Shown here one piece after another: positions 21,210 to 50,707 of a DNA stretch of 64,000 nt; within the stretch, counting starts at the first letter, position 1, and each line of letters begins with the position of its first letter. The position numbers and the translations under genes were made by a program. The notes beneath the pieces are model-generated. The model made no database searches. It was not told the origin of the DNA and was given only the letters and a program-made list of their open reading frames with translations. The DNA comes from Thermococcus thermotolerans (GTDB lineage Archaea; Methanobacteriota_B; Thermococci; Thermococcales; Thermococcaceae): positions 1,984,001-2,048,000 of the forward strand of contig NZ_CP102602.1 of the NCBI RefSeq assembly GCF_024707485.1, read 5' to 3'.

Positions 21210-23518
<2,309 letters not shown>

Positions 23519-23561
23519 GATGAACACCTCCGTGCATGGGTTCAAAGTTGGACATCTAATG

Positions 23562-23606
23562 GTTCACAACTTTGGGTGCTTATAAATCTGTTGTTAACCT
23601 TTGGTT
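23562..23606 (-). promoter_or_regulatory. nfn promoter with two SurR-type motifs
   Basis: The minus-strand TATA box (GATTTATAAGC, 23579-23589) predicts a start near 23559. Upstream of it, GTTGTTAACCTTTGGTT at 23590-23606 fits the published extended SurR consensus GTTn3AACn5GTT exactly. A second core motif, GTTCACAAC (23562-23570), lies between TATA and start. SurR is the redox-sensitive regulator of the primary sulfur response in Pyrococcus and Thermococcus. Confidence 0.75.
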
Positions 23607-23690
23607 CAATACTACGAAAGTATTTTGACATAACCGTGATTTTTGTGGAAAATGTTCAGAATAACATCGGAATCGAGAAAAGAACAGGAA

Positions 23691-24452
23691 TCAGAGCTTC
23701 CTGATGAAGGTTATGTATCCAGTATGGGCCAGCATCGTTGTCTTTGGCCTCATGCACTCCTTCTTGACCTCGTGCTCCCTGACAAGGACTTCAACGACCC
23801 TCGGTTTATAAAATTCCTCCCTGTACTCCTGGAAGGCCTGGAAGAAGCGGTGAACCTGGTTCATACAGGGGGTGTAGGCGACGAAGTAGCCACCGGGGCG
23901 GAGCACCTCGACCGCATGGGGAAGGACGTTCTCCGGCTGGGGCAGGTCGAGGACGATGTGGTCGGCGTAGTCCTCATCAATGCCGTCGTAGATGTTCTTG
24001 AGCTTTATCGTTACCCTGTCGGAGAAGCCGGCAAGCTCGACGTTCTTCCTGGCTATCTCGGCGTGGTCTTCCCTTACCTCGTAGCTGATGACCCTTCCGC
24101 TCGGCCCGACGATGTTTGCCAGGAAAATTGTGAGTGCACCGCTCCCAACACCGGCCTCTATGACGGTGTCTCCCGGAGAGATGCCTGCGTAGGCGATGAT
24201 TATGCCCGCGTCCTTTGGGTGAACGATCTGGGGCCCGCGCCTCATCTTTGCTATGATGTCGTTGATGTCCGGTTTCAGAACGCGGAACTCCTCTCCCCTA
24301 TGACTGGTTATCGAGGTTCCATAGTCCTTTCCGATGAGCTCGCCGAGCTTGAGTATCCCCAGGTCGGTATGAAACTCCCTCTCCGAGGCCCTTACGAGGT
24401 ATTTCTTCCCCCGTCTGTCGATAAGGAGAACCCTATCCCCCTCCCGAATCAA
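23691..24452 (-). CDS. trmI: tRNA (adenine-57/58-N1) methyltransferase
   Basis: SAM-dependent enzyme that methylates A57 and A58 in the T-loop of archaeal tRNA. The 253 residues match P. abyssi TrmI in length and order: a small N-terminal beta domain, RRGPQIVHPKDAG, the SAM loop EAGVGSGALT and the catalytic VLDLPQPE. TTG 24452 (reading MIREGD) is chosen because GGTGAGG lies three bases upstream and the related P. abyssi protein starts in the same words from memory; GTG 24464 is an alternative. It overlaps the upstream DUF257-like gene by 20 bases. Confidence 0.93.
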   Translation of the reverse strand: MIREGDRVLLIDRRGKKYLVRASEREFHTDLGILKLGELIGKDYGTSITSHRGEEFRVLKPDINDIIAKMRRGPQIVHPKDAGIIIAYAGISPGDTVIEAGVGSGALTIFLANIVGPSGRVISYEVREDHAEIARKNVELAGFSDRVTIKLKNIYDGIDEDYADHIVLDLPQPENVLPHAVEVLRPGGYFVAYTPCMNQVHRFFQAFQEYREEFYKPRVVEVLVREHEVKKECMRPKTTMLAHTGYITFIRKL

Positions 24453-49696: not shown

Positions 49697-50707
49697 TCAC
49701 TTGAACTCTCCGTTTTCAACATGGGCGACATAAAACTTCGTTCCAGCGGAAACGCTGTCCGCGTCAACGCTTATCCCTGCTACATTCCCGTCCTCATCAA
49801 AGTGGAACGTTATCCGCCCTTCATACCCCATGGGCACAGCAAGGACGTAGGATGTTCCTCCCGGGTCGTGAGATACTGCCGAAAGTGCGAGTCCCGATAT
49901 CACCGGCGCGAGTTCACCCCCTGTGTAGTATGCAGTCGTTGTTAAGTATCCATCAGTGCCGATGGAGTATACCGTGTAATACGTCTCCACCAGGAGGGTT
50001 TTTGTCGTGGATATGACCTCGCCATTTAAGGCATTATCTGCCTCCAGCCTATCAAAGGTCATTAGTTCGCCGTCGCCGGAGGAATATACCACCTCGTAGA
50101 TCACGGCATTCGCCAGCAGTCCTTTGTCAAGGACTCCATCTATGTATTCATAGACTTCCATCACGTCTTCCGGAGGATACATATCCCCCCAGTCCCCACC
50201 GCTCACATGATATGTAACGTACCCCTCTTTGGTAACGATCTCAAAGCCTGATTTGTTGATGGTGGAGAAATCATGGTACCATACCCCGTCTGACTCGGAC
50301 ATCCTCATTATACTGATCCAGTCCGAGTCTATGTAGATTGCCCCTGTGTTGGTGTAGCTTTTCTCTGTGATGTAGCTCTCATCCGGAACCACCAGAAGGA
50401 AGGTTTCTGAATCATCTTCATAGGTAATTATGGCCGTGTGGGGATATTTCACGTCCCCACTCACCACGATGTGGAGAGTATCCGCGTGGAAAAGCATACT
50501 GCCGGTGGGCACAGTCTCTTCGGAGTCTCCAGAGGGCTCTGAGGTTGATGCCGTTGGTGTCGTAGATGTGGGGGAGGGAGTTGAGGTGGACGGGGACTGC
50601 TCAACTTTCGGCAATCCGTTGATATTAATTTCAACATTCAGTAGCCCACCTCTCCAAGCGAAGAAAAGCAGAATTACCAGCAGAACCACCACAAGTAACT
50701 TTTTCAT
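49697..50707 (-). CDS. Exported protein with Ser/Thr/Pro linker
   Basis: A 336-residue protein of unknown function. Residues 4-24 (LLVVVLLVILLFFAWRGG) are an uncleaved membrane anchor or signal. A low-complexity linker rich in Ser, Thr and Pro (about 45-75) leads to a beta-rich outer domain with many Tyr and Gly. Such linkers in archaea are usually glycosylated and span the S-layer. ATG 50707 follows an excellent AAAGGAGGTGAG. No repeat domain was recognised. It lies just after the larger exported lipoprotein and may be cotranscribed. Confidence 0.8.
   Translation of the reverse strand: MKKLLVVVLLVILLFFAWRGGLLNVEININGLPKVEQSPSTSTPSPTSTTPTASTSEPSGDSEETVPTGSMLFHADTLHIVVSGDVKYPHTAIITYEDDSETFLLVVPDESYITEKSYTNTGAIYIDSDWISIMRMSESDGVWYHDFSTINKSGFEIVTKEGYVTYHVSGGDWGDMYPPEDVMEVYEYIDGVLDKGLLANAVIYEVVYSSGDGELMTFDRLEADNALNGEVISTTKTLLVETYYTVYSIGTDGYLTTTAYYTGGELAPVISGLALSAVSHDPGGTSYVLAVPMGYEGRITFHFDEDGNVAGISVDADSVSAGTKFYVAHVENGEFK

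Follow-up and report, generated by a model that had tools for sequence, protein, structure and literature searches.

Described SurR operators at nfn and related operons

SurR sites at nfn operons have been published for Thermococcus kodakarensis (cited in PMC12401011 and others) and T. piezophilus (PMC8595942). In T. piezophilus, the NfnII/Xfn operon carries a pair of motifs, 44 and 72 bases away from its start codon (PMC8595942 Table 2). A SurR site activates when it lies upstream of the TATA box and represses when it lies downstream; "in some cases" repression requires both sites (credited to Hidese 2017), and the surR gene itself is activated by SurR (PMC12162507). FNOR1 abundance is higher in the presence of sulfur and that of FNOR2 in its absence (PMC12016516). 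FNOR2 is described as kept active by residual reduced SurR, which is likened to activation from an upstream site, and mbs as repressed by SurR from a site that reportedly overlaps BRE/TATA (PMC12401011). SuDH II (PF1910-1911, TON_1336-1337) is up on sulfur (PMC4463584). Nfn is also listed under negative SurR control. We take SuDH II to be the same operon type as the nfnII operon described below. For FNOR1 of T. kodakarensis, Hidese 2017 reportedly found repression by SurR that is abolished by mutation of either site.

The stretch of DNA analysed here (64 kb of a heat-loving archaeon, referred to as the window) contains an nfnII operon that would be an ordinary member of the known SurR regulon. 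The feature in front of it is most likely the SurR operator of this operon (nfnII, xfn or FNOR1). The nfnII of the present genome is thereby assigned to the SurR regulon, its sites arranged as in a case already studied, and the expected direction of control is corrected, since sulfur should switch nfnII on. The new detail is an AACn5GTT element, 20 bases before TATA, that is the best-kept upstream element, and comparison of 82 promoters gives a base-by-base view of the operator parts that are kept. The nfnII promoters also offer a simple test of whether the side of the operator decides between activation and repression by one archaeal regulator.

The operon, its probable regulator and the predicted operator layout

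The small subunit scores 525 bits against PDB 5vj7 chain B, which we take to be the Xfn enzyme of P. furiosus, and 227 bits against NfnI (5jca); from these computed scores the operon is assigned to the NfnII/Xfn/FNOR1 type. A genome that is presumably that of T. kodakarensis (G024, 2306 genes on 2.089 Mb) holds a close copy at 1.171 Mb (70% identity) and another at 1.479 Mb (36%). These positions fit TK1325-TK1326 (FNOR1) and TK1684-TK1685 (FNOR2), to which the copies are tentatively assigned.

The SurR gene lies at G000:C1:923919 of the present genome (NF047699, 404 bits with a cut-off of 250; PDB 2qlz, PF0095, E 4e-92). The encoded protein carries a CxxC (CTEC) near its N-terminus, and the gene is divergent from pdo (protein disulfide oxidoreductase), with an extended motif between the two. 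SurR is present in 92 of the 94 family genomes searched. Extended motifs also precede the SHI beta gene (HydB, L137), the SHII beta gene (L139; ShyB 702 bits, cut-off 690), two mbh clusters, mbs (L138) and the paralogous nfn (L136). The mbh clusters are mbh1 (L142; large subunit 671 bits to PDB 6cfw_L) and a second mbh, mbh2 (L140; 413 bits to 6cfw_L), and the large subunit of mbs scores 807 bits to PDB 6u8y_L, presumably MBS. Before the SHII (ShyB) operon there are three overlapping extended motifs (G000:C1:1161079-1161109), and in the adjacent mbh clusters (G000:C1:1686500-1705600; L303, L304) mbh1 shows the motif in both directions and mbh2 shows it forward at two places.

The preliminary description had placed an exact GTTn3AACn5GTT directly before the nfn TATA box and a second GTTn3AAC between TATA and the expected start; both are found where it put them (Table 1), the first with a gap of 3 bp to TATA and the second reading GTTCACAAC. 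Because nfn is on the minus strand, the long motif runs antiparallel to it and reads AACCAAAGGTTAACAAC along nfn, an orientation that the description did not mention. In the direction of nfn the promoter is AACCAAAGGTTAACAAC-AGA-TTTATAAG-CACCCAAA-GTTGTGAAC, followed by the leader and by GGAGGTG.

Table 1. Features of the nfn locus, in positions of the 64-kb window
Feature	Positions	Strand	Remarks
nfn large subunit (GltA-like, TIGR01316)	21210-22652	-	Putative ATG start, overlaps small-subunit stop; scanned as 21213-22640
nfn small subunit (NfnII/Xfn/FNOR1 beta type)	22652-23518	-	Putative GTG start at 23518
Shine-Dalgarno GGAGGTG	23525-23531	-
Leader element GTCCAACTTTGAAC (GNNCAN4TGNNC)	23540-23553	-	Conserved
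Predicted transcription start region	23555-23559	-	Predicted from TATA position (PMC5316973)
Downstream core GTTn3AAC (dSBS)	23562-23570		Between TATA and predicted transcription start; exact core at +16 in 61/82 orthologous promoters
TATA box TTTATAAG	23579-23586	-	TTTATAA present in 82/82 orthologous promoters, used as anchor
Upstream core GTTn3AAC (uSBS)	23590-23598		Exact core at TATA-anchored -12 in 43/82 orthologous promoters
Extended SurR motif GTTGTTAACCTTTGGTT (GTTn3AACn5GTT)	23590-23606	+	Antiparallel to nfn; exact match
AACn5GTT element AACCTTTGGTT	23596-23606		Best-kept upstream element; at -20 in 76/82 orthologous promoters

A gap of 3 bp separates the complete upstream core, GTTAACAAC, from TATA, and the BRE position is taken up by the inner AAC (23590-23592) of this core. 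The computed spacing of the two cores is 28 bp from centre to centre, the downstream one starting at +16, counted from the first T of TTTATAA. With a TATA box centred ~27 nt upstream of the transcription start (PMC5316973), the downstream core would lie at about -15 to -7. Motifs are found, as in a SurR operator, both near BRE/TATA and between TATA and start, the TATA box being identified by sequence and the start predicted. Counted from the start codon, the cores begin at 44 and 72 bases, the same distances as in T. piezophilus. In that species both motifs are given as short (PMC8595942); the site at 72 in the window is long on the other strand. Within the window, AACCWWWGGTT has a single match, which is the AACn5GTT element.

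Upstream of the operon, a terminator-like hairpin with a T-rich tail (23685-23703, minus strand; 1 found against 0.3 expected) stands at the end of a methyltransferase-like gene, which fits an nfn operon with its own promoter.

Conservation of the predicted operator in orthologous promoters

The core GTTn3AAC alone carries little meaning because it is common: the window contains 16 against 10.1 expected, and 7 of 100 shuffles reach 16. The extended motif occurs twice (shuffle mean 0.26; at least two in 7/100 shuffles), its second occurrence (49704-49720, within a reading frame of 346 aa) being probably a chance match. In the whole genome, the extended motif is found 36 times, compared with 7 matches to its backward reading; the excess of the core is smaller (603 against 348). 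By a longest-frame rule, 12 of the extended motifs in 28 examined loci and one in the window fall inside reading frames, and these may be chance matches.

Small-subunit relatives at E <= 1e-40 were found in 86 of the 94 family genomes. Close-type matches that reach the gene start (65-100% identity, six genus-level groups) yield 82 promoters, in all of which TTTATAA stands at the expected place, so that positions can be counted from its first T. Exact cores in these promoters start at -57 (1), -26 (22), -12 (43) and +16 (61), so 126 of 127 occupy just three TATA-anchored positions. In 300 within-sequence shuffles, the mean is 5.5 cores in total (largest 13) with at most 8 per position, compared with 127 and 61 observed; these are base shuffles, with the relatedness of the promoters outside the model. 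Thinning to 44 promoters less than 80% alike gives the same picture. That the motifs at the nfn promoter are chance matches to a short and common pattern has the frequency of the core in its favour, but this explanation is as good as eliminated by the fixed core positions in orthologous promoters.

Upstream of TATA, it is AACn5GTT and not the published core that varies least. This element starts at -20 in 76 of the 82 promoters, mostly as AACCTTTGGTT (37) or AACCAAAGGTT (15), and its GTT is present in all 82. In the thinned set, AAC at -20 is kept in 40 and GTT at -12 in all 44, compared with 22 for the inner AAC, 9 for the outer GTT, 33 for the downstream GTT and 35 for the downstream AAC. 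Positions -50 to -43 hold 0.01-0.18 bits each across the 82 promoters.

The operator layout is not universal among orthologous nfnII promoters. The exact long motif is present in at least one direction in 57/82 (35 with the third half-site on the TATA side only, 16 on the far side only, 6 on both) and absent from 25. An inner half-site other than AAC occurs in 39/82 (AAT 26, CAC 11, GAC 2), and 22/82 have a far-side core, instead of or besides the one on the TATA side. In 21/82 there is no exact downstream core, and exact long motif and exact downstream core stand together in 44/82. The nfnII promoter of the presumed T. kodakarensis genome matches the window, with exact cores at -12 and +16 and an AACn5GTT starting at -20; the FNOR2-type promoter of that genome carries the long motif in the gene's direction. 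The predicted operator in the window resembles uSBS and dSBS of the putatively orthologous FNOR1 (TK1325-TK1326), differing in the letters between the half-sites.

Probable direction of control and the nfn leader

The nfnII operon is probably repressed by reduced SurR from both sites and released by sulfur. Without sulfur, reduced SurR would bind the upstream core, over the BRE position and abutting TATA, as well as the downstream core between TATA and transcription start, and the two occupied sites together would block access of TFB/TBP and RNA polymerase. Once sulfur is present, SurR would be oxidised at its CxxC and would leave the operator, and the derepressed operon would make more ferredoxin:NADP oxidoreductase. 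This reading is preferred because of the literature on relatives and the reported FNOR1 result together; comparison with other promoters agrees with it in part. Control of nfn by SurR through two sites, as the preliminary description had proposed, is supported by the motif, its placement, its conservation and the presence of a SurR gene, although binding and cooperation of the sites stay predictions. The further proposal of that description, that one site activates and the other represses, is not supported.

Under such a two-way scheme, the upstream SurR site would activate and the downstream site repress, as for T. kodakarensis FNOR2 (PMC12401011). The general rule that a site upstream of TATA means activation (PMC12162507) does predict this, and hence the opposite of repression, for the upstream site. 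Moreover, AACn5GTT stands at -20 both in the 76 nfnII promoters and in FNOR2-type promoters (21/21), and at -21 in 29 of the 30 surR promoters. The FNOR2-type promoters (own copy at G000:C1:1915399) share further traits with the window: an upstream long motif (21/21), an exact core within 45 bases after TATA (15/21) and a similar leader. They differ in that the upstream motif runs along the gene (21/21) with its core on the far side, and FNOR2 is reported as activated. In the surR promoters (30 best-matching loci), the long motif is likewise forward in 29/30, and in both sets it ends 9-10 bp before TATA. The window motif departs from this layout: it is reversed, and its complete core, separated from TATA by 3 bp, overlaps the BRE position. 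The two-way scheme suits FNOR2, the paralogue, whereas the orthologue of the window operon in the presumed T. kodakarensis genome would be FNOR1. It is therefore considered unlikely. A third explanation, in which SurR binds but sulfur has little net effect and another regulator at the leader element mainly sets nfnII, could draw on the strong conservation of GNNCAN4TGNNC, common to FNOR2-type leaders. It is very improbable in view of the reported sulfur response of the relatives' enzymes (PMC12016516, PMC4463584), and the arms of the leader element lack covariation in 29 divergent representatives. The own FNOR2-type promoter (G000:C1:1915399-1915500, L136) contains a forward extended motif, a downstream core and a window-like leader. 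To our knowledge, no regulator has been described for the leader element.

At nfnII promoters the position of the third half-site varies (TATA side, far side, both or neither), whereas FNOR2-type and surR promoters carry it on the far side. A rather doubtful, though testable, proposal is that AACCWWWGGTT is an anchor at fixed distance from TATA and that the side of the third half-site sets the sign, TATA side repressing and far side activating. If so, a TATA-side half-site would complete a core over the BRE from which SurR represses, the orthologous nfnII promoters would have switched side in evolution (as the 35, 16, 6 and 25 promoters above would reflect), and in related species a few base changes would have altered how this one operon responds to sulfur. 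In one group (g5), the nfnII promoters have the far side in 5/5. The forward motifs of FNOR2-type (21/21) and surR promoters (29/30) fit such a rule, as do the reversed motif of the own mbs and the mbh2-type clusters (30 best-matching loci), which are forward in 29/30, with AACn5GTT at -22 in 20 and 10 unscored; SurR activation of mbh2 is putative. The own mbs promoter resembles the window in its reversed upstream long motif and in an exact core that follows the first T of TTTATAA by 13 bases, but it has 20 bp instead of 3 between the long motif and TATA. Against the rule, or neutral to it, are the own mbh1, whose core is extended on both sides with no clear TATA nearby, and the counts of SHI promoters (30 loci, 180 bp: no exact long motif in 22, and 4 forward, 3 both and 1 reverse) and of NfnI-like group A promoters (n=20: 12 reverse, 7 both, 1 none). 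The SHI and mbh1 promoters decide nothing on the sign. The SurR literature searched, available in part, contained no statement of this idea, for which no priority is claimed; in its available portion, PMC12162507 lists motif strands (Table 2) and draws no side rule. The group A nfn (L164-L183) are a third Nfn type, with 40-45% identity to that of the window and found in several genus-level groups; the core is extended in reverse or on both sides in 19/20 of their promoters.

The nfn leader (23520-23557, minus strand) is itself conserved, with GNNCAN4TGNNC just after the predicted transcription start and a near-invariant TTCAT after the Shine-Dalgarno, and is a possible second operator or RNA element. 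The 82 leaders show almost no length change between ATGNYCAN4TGRNC and GGAGGTGTTCAT, and the distance from TATA to Shine-Dalgarno is 55 in 48 promoters, 56 in 6, 57 in 27 and 58 in 1; the element thus keeps a fixed spacing to the ribosome site and a variable one to TATA. A leader peptide led by the ATG was rejected: at codons 2, 4 and 7 the third base is near-invariant and the first two vary, the opposite of coding. A palindrome with compensating changes is not claimed either, one pair reaching 43/82 where shuffles average 34.8 (2.8% of shuffles), but 15/29 against 13.3 in divergent representatives. FNOR2-type leaders contain RTGNNCAN4TGNNC in 20/21, with 36 nt from RTG to CAY in those aligned by eye. 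As a wider regulon, GAACAN4TGTTC gives 0-5 sites in each of 10 genomes (control 0-2), two of them in FNOR2-type promoters. TTTATAA-N23-31-GNYCAN4TGRNC occurs once in this genome, at the nfn of the window, and AACCWWWGGTTNRNNAYA has matches in 8/10 genomes, with 4 in the own genome against 0 for the control, including nfn and mbh1 (L142).
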